DNA of 64,000 nt, taken from contig WGLW01000014.1 of the NCBI GenBank assembly GCA_016125405.1, positions 1 to 64,000 of the forward strand, read 5' to 3'. The first letter of the stretch is position 1. Every line of letters begins with the position of its first letter. The translations under genes and the position numbers were made by a program. This stretch comes from Alphaproteobacteria bacterium. Lineage in GTDB: Bacteria > Pseudomonadota > Alphaproteobacteria > Caulobacterales > Hyphomonadaceae. Below, piece after piece: positions 41,759 through 52,445 of the stretch. The notes under the pieces are model-generated. The model searched no databases. It was not told the DNA's origin and worked only from the letters and a program-made list of their open reading frames with translations.

Positions 41759-41775
41759 ACTGTATGACATACAGT
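41759..41775. promoter_or_regulatory. Perfect palindrome upstream of padR-like gene
   Basis: ACTGTATG-A-CATACAGT is a perfect 17-base palindrome, 25 bases before the PadR start. An AGTGT/ACACT pair (41773-41777, 41785-41789) overlaps its right end. PadR regulators bind dyads of this general type, so autoregulation is likely. Confidence 0.65.
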
Positions 41776-41800
41776 GTGCGCTAAACACTATGTGGGACAC

Positions 41801-42145
41801 ATGCCAACCGCAACCGACATCATCGAGACGCTGAAAGGCGAGTTACGCAGGGGAACGTTGATTTTGGCGGTACTCGGTGCGCTGCGTTCCGAGAAGTATG
41901 GCTACACGCTGCGGACGGATCTGGCCGGGCAGGGCGTCGAGATCGACGAAGGCGCGCTTTATCCGATGCTCCGCCGGCTCGAGGCGCAGGGGCTGCTGGT
42001 CAGCGAGTGGCGGGAAGACGCCCGGCGCCGGAAACGCTTCTACCGGCTGTCGGACGAGGGCGCGGCGGCGCTGGAGACGCTGGCTGGCGAATGGCGGGCG
42101 CTGAACGCGGCGCTGAACGGAATCCTCAAGGAGACATCGCAATGA
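41801..42145 (+). CDS. PadR-family transcription regulator
   Basis: The 114-residue protein has the short PadR form: ELRRGTLILAVLGALRSEKYGYTL, then EGALYPMLRRLEAQGLLVSEWR and a C-terminal helix. ATG at 41801 is chosen over an in-frame start at 41774, which lies within the palindrome. The stop overlaps the next gene's ATG by four bases, so the two proteins are made together. Confidence 0.9.
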   Translation: MPTATDIIETLKGELRRGTLILAVLGALRSEKYGYTLRTDLAGQGVEIDEGALYPMLRRLEAQGLLVSEWREDARRRKRFYRLSDEGAAALETLAGEWRALNAALNGILKETSQ

Positions 42146-43167
42146 GCGAACGGAACACAGTCGCCGAAGACCTGGTGGACCGGTATCTCGCCGCCGTGGG
42201 CCGTCGCCTGCCGCCGAAACAGGCCGCTGACATCACGGCGGAAATGCGCGAGGCGCTGACCGGACAGCTGGAAGCGCTGGAAGAGCGCAACGGCCGGCCC
42301 GCAAGCCGGGACGAGGCGGCGGCCATACTCAAGGCCTTTGGCAGCCCCATGCTTGTCGCGGCGCGCTATTCGGGCCGGGACTTTCTGATCGGTCCGGAGC
42401 TGTATCCCTATTTCTGGCCGGTGGCGCGGATTGTCGTCGGCATCGTCGCGGCGCTCGCCATTGTGGGAATGCTGGTCGCCGGCGTGGTCAACGGCAAGCC
42501 GATGCAGCACGTGCTGCAGGGGCTGGCGGGCGCATGGAATGGCGGCCTGCTGGCGTTCGGAATTGTCGCGGCCGTCTTCATCGTGATGGAGCAGGCGCGG
42601 GCAGGCGCAAAAATCGAGGCGGCATGGAACCCGAAGACCCTGCCGCGCGACACACGCGAAAAGCCCAAGTCCCTGTTTGAAAGCCTGTGTTCACTGGCCT
42701 GGGACGCCATCTTCATCGCCTGGTGGATTGGCGTGATTCATCTGCCCGCGCAGGTCTCGGGTGCGGCGTGGGACAGCGGCGTGCGGTTCGATTTCGGCCC
42801 GGCATGGGCGCCGGTTCACACACTTGTCCTGGTGCTGGCGGTCATGCAGGCTGGCATTCATGCAGCGGACGTGGTGCATCCGGCCTGGAGCCGTGTGCGG
42901 GGCGCGGCCGCCGCCATCGTCGCCGCAATGGGGCTCGCGGCGACCTCGATCCTGGCGCGGGGCGGCAGCCTGTTCTCGATCACCGGCAGTCCTGATGTCG
43001 CCGATCGCGTGGCCGAGCTGAACGAGTCGTTTGCGACGGTTTCGACCGTGCTGATCTACGGCCTGGCCCTGGGGTTCGGGATCGCGCTGGTCGTGGAGCT
43101 TTGGCGGCTATGGCGCAGCTTCCAGGGCGCCGACGCGGGCGGGGCGGCGGTTTTTCGTACCAAATAG
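42142..43167 (+). CDS. Membrane protein with HAAS-like N-terminal domain
   Basis: The 341-residue protein has a cytoplasmic helical N-terminus (about 1-72: VDRYLAAVGRRLPPKQAADI, EEAAAILKAFGSP-like) of the kind found next to PadR regulators (HAAS/DUF1700-type). About six hydrophobic helices follow from residue 90 to the end. PadR plus HAAS membrane protein pairs are common; the membrane partner is thought to sense or relay an envelope signal. No transport motif is seen. GGAGA precedes the ATG. Confidence 0.7.
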   Translation: MSERNTVAEDLVDRYLAAVGRRLPPKQAADITAEMREALTGQLEALEERNGRPASRDEAAAILKAFGSPMLVAARYSGRDFLIGPELYPYFWPVARIVVGIVAALAIVGMLVAGVVNGKPMQHVLQGLAGAWNGGLLAFGIVAAVFIVMEQARAGAKIEAAWNPKTLPRDTREKPKSLFESLCSLAWDAIFIAWWIGVIHLPAQVSGAAWDSGVRFDFGPAWAPVHTLVLVLAVMQAGIHAADVVHPAWSRVRGAAAAIVAAMGLAATSILARGGSLFSITGSPDVADRVAELNESFATVSTVLIYGLALGFGIALVVELWRLWRSFQGADAGGAAVFRTK

Positions 43168-43297
43168 CCCGCCCGAGACGGTCGCTGGCTGCGCCGCTAA
43201 CGGCAAAGTTATCGTGGCGCCGTGGGGGCAGCGGTTGTTGACGGTGTCAAGGTGAGGCATAATGCCTCCAAATCAAAAATTCGAGGAGCGCCCTCCC

Positions 43298-45355
43298 ATG
43301 ACCCGCAAGACCATTGTTGCCGCCCTCGCCGGCGTTTCCACGCTGGCCCTGCTGACGGTTGGGCTGAGCGCCCTTCCACAGGTCGAGAGCGCGAACGCCA
43401 CGCCGGCCAGCGCCGCCGTCGGCAAGACCGTCGACAACTTCATGCTGGTCGACCAGAACGGCGTCGCCTGGACGCTGCGCTACGACAAGATCGCGCCGGC
43501 CGTGGTGCTGGTGACCTACGCCAACGGCGACAAGACGTCCCGCGATGCGGCCAAGGCGGTCGAGGCGCTGAAGGCGAAGTATCCGACGGTCGAGTTTGCG
43601 CTGATCGACTCCAGCAACGCCGATAACCGGGACTCCATCGCCGCCGAAGCCAAGGCCCAGGGCATCACGGTTCCGCTGCTGGCCGACAACTTCCAGCTGG
43701 TCGGCGGCGCCATGGGCGTGACGCAGACGGGCGAAGCCTATCTGGTCGATCCCAAGACCTGGACGGTTCTCTATCATGGCCCGGTGGACGCCTCGGGCGC
43801 GGCCAAGAAGGCGGACGGCTATCTGGCCGAAGCGCTTGAAGCGCATGTGGCGGGCAAGCCCATCGCCGTGAACGATGTTGCGGTGAAGGGCAAGGAGATC
43901 GCTTTCCCGGACCGCGCCACCAAGGGGCAATGGTCCAAGATCTCCTACGAGAAGGACATCGCGCCGATCCTCGTCAAGAACTGCGTTGATTGCCACGAGC
44001 CGGGCGGGATCGCCCCGTGGCAGATGACCAGCTACGAAATGGTCAAGGGCTTCTCCCCGATGATCCGAGAAGTGCTGCGCACGGACCGGATGCCGCCCTA
44101 CAACGCCGACCCGACGATCGGCCACTTCAAGGAAGACGCCAACCTTTCGGAAGCCGACACCAAGACGCTGATCCACTGGATCGAGGCGGGCAGCCCGCGC
44201 GGCGCCGGCGACGATCCGCTGAAGACGGAAGTGAAGCAGCGCGCCGAATGGCCGCTCGGCAAGCCGGACCTGATCGTCAAGATCCCGGACTACAACGTCC
44301 CGGCGACGGGCGTCGTCGATTACCAGACGCCGGCGATTGCGAGCCCGCTGAAAGAAGGCAAGTGGCTGAAAGCCACCACCTTCAAGGCCGGTTCGCGCCA
44401 GGCCGTGCACCACATTCTCGCCGGCTGGCTGCCGAAGATGCCGGCCAACGGGCAGGGCTTCGAATGGAACCTGTCGATGGGTGGCTACGCTGTCGGGGCC
44501 GAGTCCAACAAGGCGCCGGACGGCTGGGGAACCTACATCCCGCCCGGCGGCGCCATCTCGTTCCAGATGCACTACACGCCGTTTGGCAAGGCGATCACCG
44601 ACCACAGCGAAGTCGGCTTCTACTTCATGGACAAGCCGCCGACCAACATGATGCGGCAGACCGTGCTGCTTGATCCGACGATCGTCATTCCGGCCGGCGA
44701 GGCGCGCCATCACGAGCGCAGCTACATCGTCCTGCCGGCCGCCATCCAGCTCTACGGCGCACAGCCGCACGCCCACTATCGCGGCTATTCCTCGAAGCTG
44801 ACGGTGATCTATCCGGACGGCAAGCAGAAGGTCCTGCTCAACCTGCCGAACTACGACTTCAACTGGCAGCGCGAGTACATTTTCAAGGACCTGATCAACA
44901 TCCCTGCGGGATCGAAGCTGGTCGCCGACTACATCTACGACAACTCGCCGATGAACCAGTCCAACCCTGATCCCAAGAAGACGATCCAGTGGGGCGACCA
45001 GTCGTTCGAGGAGATGCTGTTCACGGCGATCCGCTACCGCTGGGTCGACGAGACCGCTGACCACAAGCGCGACGACCTGCAGGAGAAACTCCAGCAGTCG
45101 GAGATCTTCACGGCCATCGACGACAACATGAATGGCAAGCTGGAGCTCGCGGAACTGAAGAGCGACATGCTTCAGCCGCTGCGTGAGCACTTCGCCGACT
45201 TCGACGTGGACCATGACGGCTCTCTGAGCCCGGCCGAGTTCGGCGGCGCCATGCAGGCAGTGCAGAAGGCCCAGCAGGCCCGCTACGAAGAGCAGCAGAA
45301 ACAGCACCACGAGGAGAACGCCAAGGCCAACGGCGCTCCGCAGAGCAGCCGCTGA
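43298..45355 (+). CDS. Secreted fusion: redoxin-like, cytochrome c, copper-monooxygenase-like and EF-hand domains
   Basis: The protein has 685 residues. GAGGAG precedes the ATG at 43298, which opens a signal peptide (about 1-32). Residues 42-190 resemble a thioredoxin/redoxin fold, but the usual CxxC position reads NGDKTS, so it is probably not redox-active. A single-haem domain follows with CVDCH at 229-233 and Met265 as likely ligand. Residues 320-590 resemble the copper type II monooxygenase (PHM/DBM-like) fold, with candidate ligands His371/372, His425, His491 and His493. Two EF-hand loops lie at 608-619 and 636-647, then a Gln/Lys-rich tail. Substrate unknown. A terminator follows. Confidence 0.8.
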   Translation: MTRKTIVAALAGVSTLALLTVGLSALPQVESANATPASAAVGKTVDNFMLVDQNGVAWTLRYDKIAPAVVLVTYANGDKTSRDAAKAVEALKAKYPTVEFALIDSSNADNRDSIAAEAKAQGITVPLLADNFQLVGGAMGVTQTGEAYLVDPKTWTVLYHGPVDASGAAKKADGYLAEALEAHVAGKPIAVNDVAVKGKEIAFPDRATKGQWSKISYEKDIAPILVKNCVDCHEPGGIAPWQMTSYEMVKGFSPMIREVLRTDRMPPYNADPTIGHFKEDANLSEADTKTLIHWIEAGSPRGAGDDPLKTEVKQRAEWPLGKPDLIVKIPDYNVPATGVVDYQTPAIASPLKEGKWLKATTFKAGSRQAVHHILAGWLPKMPANGQGFEWNLSMGGYAVGAESNKAPDGWGTYIPPGGAISFQMHYTPFGKAITDHSEVGFYFMDKPPTNMMRQTVLLDPTIVIPAGEARHHERSYIVLPAAIQLYGAQPHAHYRGYSSKLTVIYPDGKQKVLLNLPNYDFNWQREYIFKDLINIPAGSKLVADYIYDNSPMNQSNPDPKKTIQWGDQSFEEMLFTAIRYRWVDETADHKRDDLQEKLQQSEIFTAIDDNMNGKLELAELKSDMLQPLREHFADFDVDHDGSLSPAEFGGAMQAVQKAQQARYEEQQKQHHEENAKANGAPQSSR

Positions 45356-45385
45356 TCGACTGGCCAGCCTGAAGACGATCCGCCC

Positions 45386-45422
45386 GGCCGAGCCCCGCAA
45401 GGGGTCCGGCCGATGGCTTTTT
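45386..45422 (+). terminator. Intrinsic terminator after the fusion gene
   Basis: An imperfect hairpin (GGCCG..GCCCC, loop GCAA, GGGG..CCGGCC, 45386-45411) is followed by CTTTTT at 45417-45422. It ends the message of the 43298 gene. The remainder of the gap to 45669 holds no gene that I can support; it should contain the atpH promoter. Confidence 0.65.
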
Positions 45423-45669: not shown

Positions 45670-47770
<2,101 letters not shown>

Positions 47771-47811
47771 CCGGCTGACAGGACCTCCAGAGGCTTTTCA
47801 GGGACAGGCCC

Positions 47812-50176
<2,365 letters not shown>

Positions 50177-50204
50177 TTTCCCTGCGAGATTTCTGACAAT
50201 GAGA

Positions 50205-50235
50205 GGCGCCGGTGCGGAAACGCCCGGCGCCTTTT
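50205..50235 (+). terminator. Intrinsic terminator after atpD
   Basis: GGCGCCGG (50205-50212) pairs perfectly with CCGGCGCC (50224-50231) across an 11-base loop and is followed by TTTT (50232-50235). It should end most transcripts of atpHAGD before atpC. Confidence 0.75.
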
Positions 50236-50306
50236 CGCTGCCGCCGTCAGCCGCTAGCCTGACCTGGCTGGCCGGAGCCGGCAGCGCCCGGCAGGGGAGC
50301 GGAAAC

Positions 50307-50900
50307 ATGCGTCGTATCGCACCTGCCGGTGTACTGGCCGGCGTGCTCTCCGGTTTGCTGGGAGTGCTCGGCGCAGGGATGCCTGGGCTCGCGCAATCGC
50401 CCCTGTCTCCGGCGATTTCTCCCGATCTTTCGCCCCAGGATGTCGCAGCGGCGTTCGAGGACGCGGTGGTCGACATCTGCATTCCAGCCGTCATCGAAGC
50501 TCGCCGGCCGGGGTCGCTGGGCCTTGGTACAAGGATTGCGGTCGCCACCGGCGCGGACGCGCGCGGCCAGTCTGGGGCCGAGCCGGGCGATACGGTCTGG
50601 GACGTCGCCGCCGCCCGGGGCGTCGTCCTGATCCACGAGCACGAGGGCCGATGCGTCGTCACCGCCTATGGGCCGCCAGCCGCCGGAACGCTTTCCGAAA
50701 CCGCAGCGCGCGTAACAGGCGCCGGACTGGGCTTCGAGCAACTGGCGGCGACGCCGGGGCGCAGCGTCGACCTGTCGCTGTTGCGCGCTGGCGGAGGCAA
50801 GCGGGTGCAGGTCCTGCTCAACGGGTCCGAGCCCGGCATGCCGGGCCACCGTTCGCGGTTCAGCGTGCTGAAGGCCACAGTCTTCGCTGGTCAGAACTAG
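50307..50900 (+). CDS. Hypothetical secreted protein between atpD and atpC
   Basis: The protein has 197 residues with a signal peptide of about 30 residues (cleavage near GLAQ/SPLS). GGGGAG and GGAAAC precede the ATG at 50307. The mature part has AAFEDAVVDICIPAVIEARRPG and CVVTAYGPPAAG, with two Cys residues, and a beta-rich end (VDLSLLRAGGGKRVQVLLNG). I recognise no family; the layout recalls small periplasmic proteins common in Caulobacterales. It is co-directional with the metallophosphoesterase gene 25 bases on. Confidence 0.72.
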   Translation: MRRIAPAGVLAGVLSGLLGVLGAGMPGLAQSPLSPAISPDLSPQDVAAAFEDAVVDICIPAVIEARRPGSLGLGTRIAVATGADARGQSGAEPGDTVWDVAAARGVVLIHEHEGRCVVTAYGPPAAGTLSETAARVTGAGLGFEQLAATPGRSVDLSLLRAGGGKRVQVLLNGSEPGMPGHRSRFSVLKATVFAGQN

Positions 50901-50925
50901 CGGATAAGCGGGGTCAGAGGCGCGC

Positions 50926-51930
50926 GTGCTGGCAGTCTATTTACTCGCATGGCTAGGAGCGGTCGGCTGGATCGCGGCGGTCGGCTGGGCGGGGTGGCGA
51001 TGGATCGCCAAGCGCTGGAAGCCGGGCGCGTGGGCCTGGACCGCGCTCGCCGTTTCCACGCCGGTCTGGTTTTTCGGCGTCTGGGCGTTCCTCTGGGAGC
51101 CCGAAACACTGGTCGTCCGGCGGATCGCGATCGTCAGCCAGGCCTGGACGGCGCCGCCGTTGCGCATTGGCGTCATCGCCGACATCCACATGGGTGCGCC
51201 GCACATGAGCGTCGGGCGCGTGCGGCGTCTCGTGAAGCGGATGAACTCGGAGCAGGTCGACGTCGACGTTCTGCTGGGAGATTACGTTGGCAGGGACGCG
51301 CCGGCCCGCTCACGCAGCACGGGCGAGCGCGCGGCGATCGCCGCCAGCCTCGATGCGCTCGGCGGGCTGACGGCGCCCTTCGGAACCTACGCGGTGCTGG
51401 GCAATCACGACTGGTGGTATGACGGCCCGCTGGTGGCCGAAGAGCTTGGGGCGGCCGGGATCCACGTTCTGGAAAACCAGAGCCTCCGCGTGCAGCGGCC
51501 GGACAGCGATTTCTGGATCGCCGGACTGATGGACTTTGCCGGACCGCACTCGCCGTCCTACACGCGGTCGCTGGCCGACGTGCCAGATGGCGCATCCGTG
51601 ATCGCGCTGAGCCACCGGCCGGACAAGTTCGCCGCTGCGCCGGGGCGGGTGGCGCTCACACTGGCCGGCCATACCCACTGCGGCCAGGTCCGCATTCCCT
51701 ATCTGGGGCGCTACATGCCGGGTTCCTCGACCGAGTCGAAGCGATGGTCGTGCGGGCTCTACGAGGATCATGGGCGCCGGCTCTATGTCTCCGGCGGGGT
51801 CGGCGTTTCGTTTCTGCCTGTCCGCTTCCTGCAGCCGCCCGAGATTGCGGTTGTGACCATCTACCCCGATCCGGGACAAATCCGCGCGCCGGCGCAGCCC
51901 GCGGAGACTGAGCCCCTGCCGGCCCCTTGA
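50926..51930 (+). CDS. Membrane-anchored metallophosphoesterase
   Basis: The 334-residue protein has two hydrophobic N-terminal helices (about 3-28 and 36-57) and a calcineurin-like phosphoesterase domain. The metal-binding motifs are complete: Asp86/His88 (DIHMG), Asp119 (LLGDYVG), Asn160/His161 (GNHDWW), His in LSHRPD, and GHTHCGQ. Relatives with this layout include YkuE/YaeI-type enzymes acting on lipid or nucleotide phosphates. Substrate unknown. The GTG at 50926 follows CAGAGG. It ends 119 bases before atpC. Confidence 0.88.
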   Translation: MLAVYLLAWLGAVGWIAAVGWAGWRWIAKRWKPGAWAWTALAVSTPVWFFGVWAFLWEPETLVVRRIAIVSQAWTAPPLRIGVIADIHMGAPHMSVGRVRRLVKRMNSEQVDVDVLLGDYVGRDAPARSRSTGERAAIAASLDALGGLTAPFGTYAVLGNHDWWYDGPLVAEELGAAGIHVLENQSLRVQRPDSDFWIAGLMDFAGPHSPSYTRSLADVPDGASVIALSHRPDKFAAAPGRVALTLAGHTHCGQVRIPYLGRYMPGSSTESKRWSCGLYEDHGRRLYVSGGVGVSFLPVRFLQPPEIAVVTIYPDPGQIRAPAQPAETEPLPAP

Positions 51931-52049
51931 ATCCCCGGCGGTTTTCCGCATGAGTTCGGCTGGATGCGATGTTGCCGGGCGAACCGGCCGCGAGTGTCTT
52001 TACAGGGCCGCAGGGCCTGCTAAACGGCGGGCGCAAAGGGAAATTTCCG

Positions 52050-52445
52050 ATGGCCGAGACTTTTCATTTCGCCCTGGTGTCGCCTGAGCGCGAGCTCTTC
52101 TCCGGCGACGTGACGCAGGTCGACGCCCCGGGTTCGGAAGGCGATTTCGGCGTCCTCGCCGATCACGCCCCGTTCATGACGACGCTGAAGCCCGGCGTCG
52201 TGCGCATCTACGAAGATGGCGCCGTGACTCCGGTCTATGTTCGGGGCGGCTTTGCCGATGTGACGCCGGCCGGATTCACCATTCTCGCGGAAGAAGCCCT
52301 GCGCCTGTCGGAAGTGAGCGTGGTCGAAATCGAGGAGCGGATCGTCAACGCCCGCGCCGACGCCAACGATCCCGGCGACGAGGCGCGCCGCAAGGCCGGG
52401 GCTGAGCAACTGGCCTACCTCGAGGCGGTTCGCGCCGCGCTCTAG
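52050..52445 (+). CDS. atpC: ATP synthase F1 epsilon subunit
   Basis: The 131-residue protein starts AETFHFALVSPERELFSGDV and has APGSEGDFGVLADHAPFMTTLKPG, the epsilon beta-sandwich, with a C-terminal helical hairpin. It couples the rotor to c-ring and inhibits idle hydrolysis. ATG at 52050 follows AAAGGG. It is separated from atpD by a terminator and two other genes, so it may have its own promoter. Confidence 0.96.
   Translation: MAETFHFALVSPERELFSGDVTQVDAPGSEGDFGVLADHAPFMTTLKPGVVRIYEDGAVTPVYVRGGFADVTPAGFTILAEEALRLSEVSVVEIEERIVNARADANDPGDEARRKAGAEQLAYLEAVRAAL

Follow-up and report, generated by a model that had tools for sequence, protein, structure and literature searches.

The window analysed here is a stretch of 64,000 nucleotides, and on its forward strand it contains an open frame of 685 codons plus stop which encodes an exported protein with redoxin-like, c-type haem, copper and EF-hand regions. 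The features of the gene and of its conserved neighbours are as follows (all on the + strand; residue numbers refer to the 685-residue protein).

41774..42145, +, PadR-type regulator (PadR E 1.1e-16), first of a conserved upstream pair by synteny
42142..43167, +, HAAS-domain membrane protein (HAAS E 2.3e-6), overlapping the PadR gene by ATGA; present in 12 fetched regions
43298..45355, +, whole gene of the exported redoxin / c-type haem / PHM-fold copper / EF-hand protein
43298..43402, +, N-terminal export signal and linker, approximately residues 1-35 (MTRKTIVAALAGVSTLALLTVGL..ANATPASAA); residues 1-31 are disordered in the model
43403..43897, +, redoxin-like domain, residues 36-200, thiol-less in this copy (AhpC-TSA matches in relatives; 3u5r fold match)
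43520..43531, +, degenerate active-site stretch A-N-G-D, residues 75-78, aligned to the CxxC position of the solved redoxins 2ywi and 3u5r
43910..44263, +, c-type haem domain, residues 205-322 (Cytochrome_CBB3 and Haem_bd matches in relatives)
43982..43996, +, haem attachment motif CVDCH, residues 229-233, invariant in 84/84
44090..44092, +, M265 of RMPP, likely second axial haem ligand, invariant in 84/84 and kept in the distant relative L132
44261..45067, +, predicted dicopper domain of PHM/DBH fold, residues 322-590 (fold search, DBH profile match, Cu2_monoox_C in relatives)
44408..44413, +, H371-H372, predicted CuH ligands (PHM H107/H108 by motif and fold), invariant
44564..44572, +, Q423-M-H425, the PHM Q170 equivalent and the predicted CuH ligand equivalent to H172; H425 invariant and aligned to the DBH HY histidine
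44768..44776, +, H491-A-H493, predicted CuM ligands (PHM H242/H244), invariant and profile-aligned to DBH HTH
44867..44869, +, Q524, PHM Q272 equivalent, aligned to a DBH Gln; Q in 102/102 letters
45011..45016, +, E572-M573, predicted CuM Met ligand (PHM E313-M314), invariant; EM also in L132 (SLDEMC)
45119..45154, +, EF-hand loop 1, DDNMNGKLELAE, residues 608-619, with canonical ligand positions 1, 3, 5, 9 and 12
45203..45238, +, EF-hand loop 2, DVDHDGSLSPAE, residues 636-647 (EF-hand_1 E 1.9e-7)
45670..52445, +, atpHAGDC, ATP synthase F1 genes, a conserved downstream neighbour by synteny and not part of the enzyme

Domain assignment

A sequence-only reading of this gene had proposed a four-part polypeptide, and all four parts (redoxin-like domain, haem domain, PHM-like copper domain and EF-hand pair) are indeed present in the one frame. 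When the window protein alone is scanned against Pfam profiles, EF-hand_1, EF-hand_5 and EF-hand_6 exceed their cut-offs, which bears out the calcium-binding loops, while the AhpC-TSA, Haem_bd and Cu2_monoox_C matches are weak; because single-protein matches are weak outside the EF-hands, relatives are needed for the domain calls. Weak matches to DUF6033, XopAW and lanmodulin arise from a helix or from the EF-hands and were not accepted as kinship. An open frame of 717 amino acids on the reverse strand (43247-45400) was taken to be a shadow frame of the high GC content, all homology being in the + frame.

The copper domain

An AlphaFold2 model of the window protein built on 67 sequences (pLDDT 90.1, pTM 0.87) was compared with the PDB using Foldseek, which ranked human dopamine beta-hydroxylase (DBH, 4zel) first at E 6e-15, followed by about 30 PHM entries at E 7e-15 to 3e-10, with TM scores of 0.54-0.67 normalized by the length of the PHM target; the DBH and PHM matches used for the domain call have E 6e-15 to 1e-13. 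A profile restricted to the copper domain has a single PDB match, again to dopamine beta-hydroxylase (E 0.0017), and the alignment places H425, the third CuH histidine, and the H491/H493 pair on DBH copper ligands. The Pfam family Cu2_monoox_C (PF03712) is matched at E up to 0.001 by 28 of the 67 relatives (best 1.3e-7), whereas the window protein alone reaches 19.6 bits against a cut-off of 23, and 23.1 when its neighbours in the frame are included.

The six predicted copper ligands (H371, H372, H425, H491, H493 and M573) are invariant in all 84 aligned proteins. The window protein has 18 histidines, and the six which are predicted metal ligands, of copper or of haem, are invariant while none of the other 12 is (Fisher p = 5e-5). 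Since all six copper ligands are invariant across 84 proteins and no non-ligand histidine is, the observation is not a product of chance. The copper domain is thus predicted, from the model and from conservation, to have the fold and ligands of the known PHM/DBH superfamily, and it probably binds copper. Lack of a PHM-like fold or of conserved ligands would have refuted the sequence-only reading; the domain is predicted to have that fold, and its His and Met ligands are invariant in relatives.

Conservation extends beyond the ligands to residues of the second shell. Q423, which lies two residues before the third CuH histidine and is equivalent to PHM Q170, is kept in 99 of 103 proteins, and Q524, the Q272 equivalent, in 102 of 102. 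In PHM, a water network connects Q170, Q272 and H108 with the substrate (PMC6123673). The eukaryotic PHM/DBH disulfide framework is absent from the window protein, whose only cysteines, 229 and 232, belong to the haem motif.

The residues that contact the PHM substrate (R240, N316 and Y318 in PHM numbering) are not kept either: the corresponding positions 489, 575 and 577 are occupied mainly by F/Q/Y/L/V, Y/F and A/S/R, respectively. Because these residues are not kept and the disulfides are absent, the substrate cannot be read across from PHM. This bears directly on the reading of the protein as a strict bacterial counterpart of PHM that amidates or otherwise modifies peptides, a reading which the nearest folds, PHM and DBH, would favour. 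The positions equivalent to R240 and Y318 vary freely, and no recurrent precursor peptide gene occurs among the neighbours (open frames of at least 80 codons). With the carboxylate-binding arginine and the substrate tyrosine of PHM not kept, peptide amidation is unlikely, and we consider this reading very improbable.

The haem domain

The haem domain of the sequence-only reading is confirmed by the CVDCH motif at residues 229-233, of which C229, C232 and H233 are invariant in the 84 aligned relatives, as is M265; M255 is likewise invariant in the close family. Attachment of haem is made plausible by the presence of this CxxCH motif in a protein with a visible signal peptide, and by the presence of Ccm machinery in the genome (CcmF E 6e-97). 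Cytochrome_CBB3 is matched by 10 of 67 relatives and Haem_bd by 3 of 67, at E up to 0.001. A model of the isolated domain has a pLDDT of 86 and obtains no significant Foldseek match, the best being to NorC (E 1.3) and c551 (E 7.4), which may perhaps reflect the modelling of the domain without its haem. The safest name for residues 205-322 is a c-type haem domain, its fold being unconfirmed.

The conserved core and its variable additions

The N-terminal domain is of redoxin descent. AhpC-TSA is matched by 58 of 67 relatives, the family profile matches the solved redoxins 2ywi (E 4e-19) and 3u5r (E 3e-17), and 3u5r (E 7e-11) and 2ywi follow the DBH and PHM entries in the Foldseek ranking of the model. 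The description of this domain as a dead redoxin lacking its CxxC is accurate for the window copy, which has no cysteine in the domain and reads ANGD at residues 75-78, but does not describe the family as a whole. The second redoxin cysteine is retained in 37 of 84 relatives, and the first, which is absent from all other aligned relatives, is kept in L073 as part of C-N-G-C. The cysteine state changes at least nine times on the tree of the haem-PHM core; the redoxin thiols have been lost repeatedly in the family.

The EF-hands are variable in a similar way. Two canonical loops are found in 87 of 103 relatives and are absent from a Steroidobacter/SAR86-type clade in which both redox centres remain, so that calcium is not a core requirement of the family. 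L132, a distant relative of 414 amino acids, has no domains besides haem and PHM, and all of the ligands are retained in it. Taken with the loss of redoxin thiols and EF-hands elsewhere, this identifies haem plus copper as the conserved core, and the redoxin and EF-hand regions as additions.

The case for electron transfer from haem to copper rests chiefly on this pattern of a core with additions. In the alternative, the haem has a sensory or structural role, and substrate oxidation by the copper domain draws on a free or separate reductant (a small molecule or a cupredoxin) with no intramolecular transfer, as the eukaryotic PHM and DBH enzymes use diffusible ascorbate. Against this, the haem domain directly precedes the copper domain in 84 of 84 relatives and in L132, and no loss of its CxxCH or Met is seen, whereas the redoxin thiols and EF-hands are lost. 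We consider a separate reductant unlikely. Electron delivery from haem to copper within the chain would instead account for the invariance of both centres and for the minimal architecture of L132.

Several other architectures were seen. In the genome containing the window, a redoxin plus haem protein of 340 amino acids without a copper domain (L016:9066-10085) may be truncated or may be an alternative family architecture. A stand-alone redoxin relative of 251 amino acids with a GCP motif (L019:8467-9222) adjoins a large TonB-receptor-like gene. At L125 (from 8184 on), the N-termini of a homologue and of the redoxin-only protein beside it are rich in His and Met (MDHSxM/HxxM repeats) and resemble those of copper-handling proteins.

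Family spread and genomic neighbourhood

The genome containing the window (3.86 Mb, 56 contigs) has 12 matches to the protein, including five other full-length paralogues at 46-54% identity, while orthologues of the window copy are 57-62% identical to it. A scan of GTDB genomes gave 547 relatives, and the best 79 loci among them come from Phenylobacterium and other Caulobacteraceae, Hyphomonadaceae, Steroidobacter/Povalibacter, marine gammas and SAR86. The copper domain is present in only 22 of the 299 genomes that were sampled within the order and in 3 of 398 within the phylum, and Cu2_monoox_C matches above the cut-off occur in the own genome and in six of six congeners tested. The family is patchy but locally expanded: each of 14 congeners has 3-11 matches, which fits an enzyme family diversified by substrate. 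The possible occurrence of similar redoxin/cytochrome/copper proteins in Planctomycetes is a lead only. A search for plasmid carriage gave no match.

Two further paralogues are broken at contig ends (L011:9983-11230, L013:8965-10200, L017:9662-9931 and L018:1-420). The two are nearly identical at their N-terminal ends (C41 end, C42 start) and over the first ~70 residues of the C-terminal half (C51 end, C50 end) but differ elsewhere, as if a duplication or gene conversion had taken place recently. In another genome the atp-linked orthologue L123 (G023:C1:3021827-3023718) is split into two overlapping frames within the copper domain, through a frameshift, an assembly error or decay to a pseudogene.

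The window copy falls in a 14-row clade of genomes of the same family (SH-aLRT 96), and in most fetched regions of this clade the gene lies between the HAAS gene, often with PadR, and atpH. The clade and the conserved place beside the ATP synthase operon together indicate that the window copy is a vertically kept core copy. The PadR and HAAS proteins probably regulate, or respond to, the envelope, and they are linked to the enzyme by position only. The paralogues, by contrast, have as neighbours TonB receptors and catabolic genes such as those for AMP-ligases and PQQ or Mo dehydrogenases.

The neighbours were searched for a shared operon partner from which the substrate might be read, and none was found. 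The partners differ between paralogues, are each confined to one lineage and name no pathway; they include D-2-hydroxyacid dehydrogenase, AMP-ligase, PQQ dehydrogenase, a SelD-like fusion, transglutaminase and Mo hydroxylase. One Phenylobacterium-type subgroup (L026, L029, L032, L035, L037, L038, L055 and L068) has the D-2-hydroxyacid dehydrogenase gene closely downstream, often with a TetR-like gene next, and in marine gammas (L087:11933, L088:11915, L089:11927 and L095:5139) the next gene encodes a fusion of a pyridine-nucleotide oxidoreductase with an AIRS/SelD-like protein. Another neighbour, which has a TPDLQGVW motif and belongs to no Pfam family, recurs at L083:1080-2111 and in 17 relatives.

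The conserved PadR-HAAS neighbours and the fixed place by the ATP synthase operon suggest a housekeeping role, and it can be argued from them, and from the redoxin ancestry, that the protein is a copper/haem redox protein with no monooxygenase activity: a periplasmic oxidase, or a defence against peroxide, NO or copper stress, with an envelope role linked to PadR and HAAS in the case of the window copy. The HxxM-rich N-terminus of L125 is consistent with this reading, and has also been counted in favour of a copper monooxygenase. The window copy has, however, lost the redoxin thiols, and the separate CuH and CuM ligand sets, along with the kept Q423 and Q524, match the hydroxylating enzymes. 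A role of this kind is improbable, slightly more so than a separate reductant.

Proposed mechanism

The reading that we prefer, with a probability of about 0.6, is that the protein is a periplasmic, haem-wired dicopper monooxygenase which hydroxylates a C-H bond of a small molecule and has its own haem as the electron source. The protein would be exported, with the Ccm system attaching haem c at C229 and C232. A donor in the periplasm would supply electrons to the haem, and these would move within the chain to CuH (H371/H372/H425) and on to CuM (H491/H493/M573), where O2 would be activated. The C-H bond of the small substrate would then be hydroxylated as in PHM and DBH, with the tethered haem replacing ascorbate. 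The redoxin domain may act as a thiol-less structural or docking module, and the EF-hand pair may form, in most lineages, a calcium-stabilised C-terminal cap.

Comparison with known systems

How electrons travel between the two distant copper sites of PHM and DBH, which are textbook animal enzymes, is still under debate. The window protein has in common with rat PHM (1phm, 1opm, 3mll) the predicted fold, the six copper ligands, the Q170 and Q272 equivalents and the Glu before the Met ligand, but it is only ~15% identical, has neither the disulfides nor the substrate-binding residues, and carries fused haem, redoxin and EF-hand regions. Human DBH (4zel), both the best fold match and the only sequence-profile match of the copper domain, carries an extra N-terminal domain, DOMON; the partner in the bacterial and presumably periplasmic window protein is instead a covalent c-type haem domain with invariant ligands. 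The proposed feeding of a copper oxygenase by haem has a general parallel in cellobiose dehydrogenase and lytic polysaccharide monooxygenase, where a haem domain delivers electrons to the oxygenase, but there the donor is a separate haem b protein and the copper enzyme is mononuclear, while here haem and copper share one chain. The N-terminal domain is like the AhpC/TSA redoxins 2ywi, 3u5r and 2cvb in fold and sequence, and differs from them in lacking the CxxC.

Significance

The superfamily fold and ligands are known; what is new is the combination of a tethered c-type haem, a dead redoxin and EF-hands in one chain of PHM/DBH fold. No paper on this architecture was found in the open-access literature, in agreement with the earlier suggestion that no such four-part enzyme has been characterised, although the search was not exhaustive and work may have appeared elsewhere. 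The PHM-type domain is otherwise known from animal hormone synthesis. The chances are about even that these proteins form a large unrecognised bacterial family of ascorbate-independent C-H hydroxylases of PHM/DBH type, each with its own c-type haem reductase domain, in which Caulobacterales lineages hold up to about ten paralogues of different substrate and one core copy beside the ATP synthase operon.

If this is true, the built-in visible haem of a bacterial PHM-like enzyme would serve as an optical reporter of electron transfer in single turnovers, and the family would provide a soluble, self-contained scaffold for C-H hydroxylation that is rich in natural sequence variation. A function would also be assigned to a family which has no role in the literature searched and which is present at up to about ten copies per 3-5 Mb genome.
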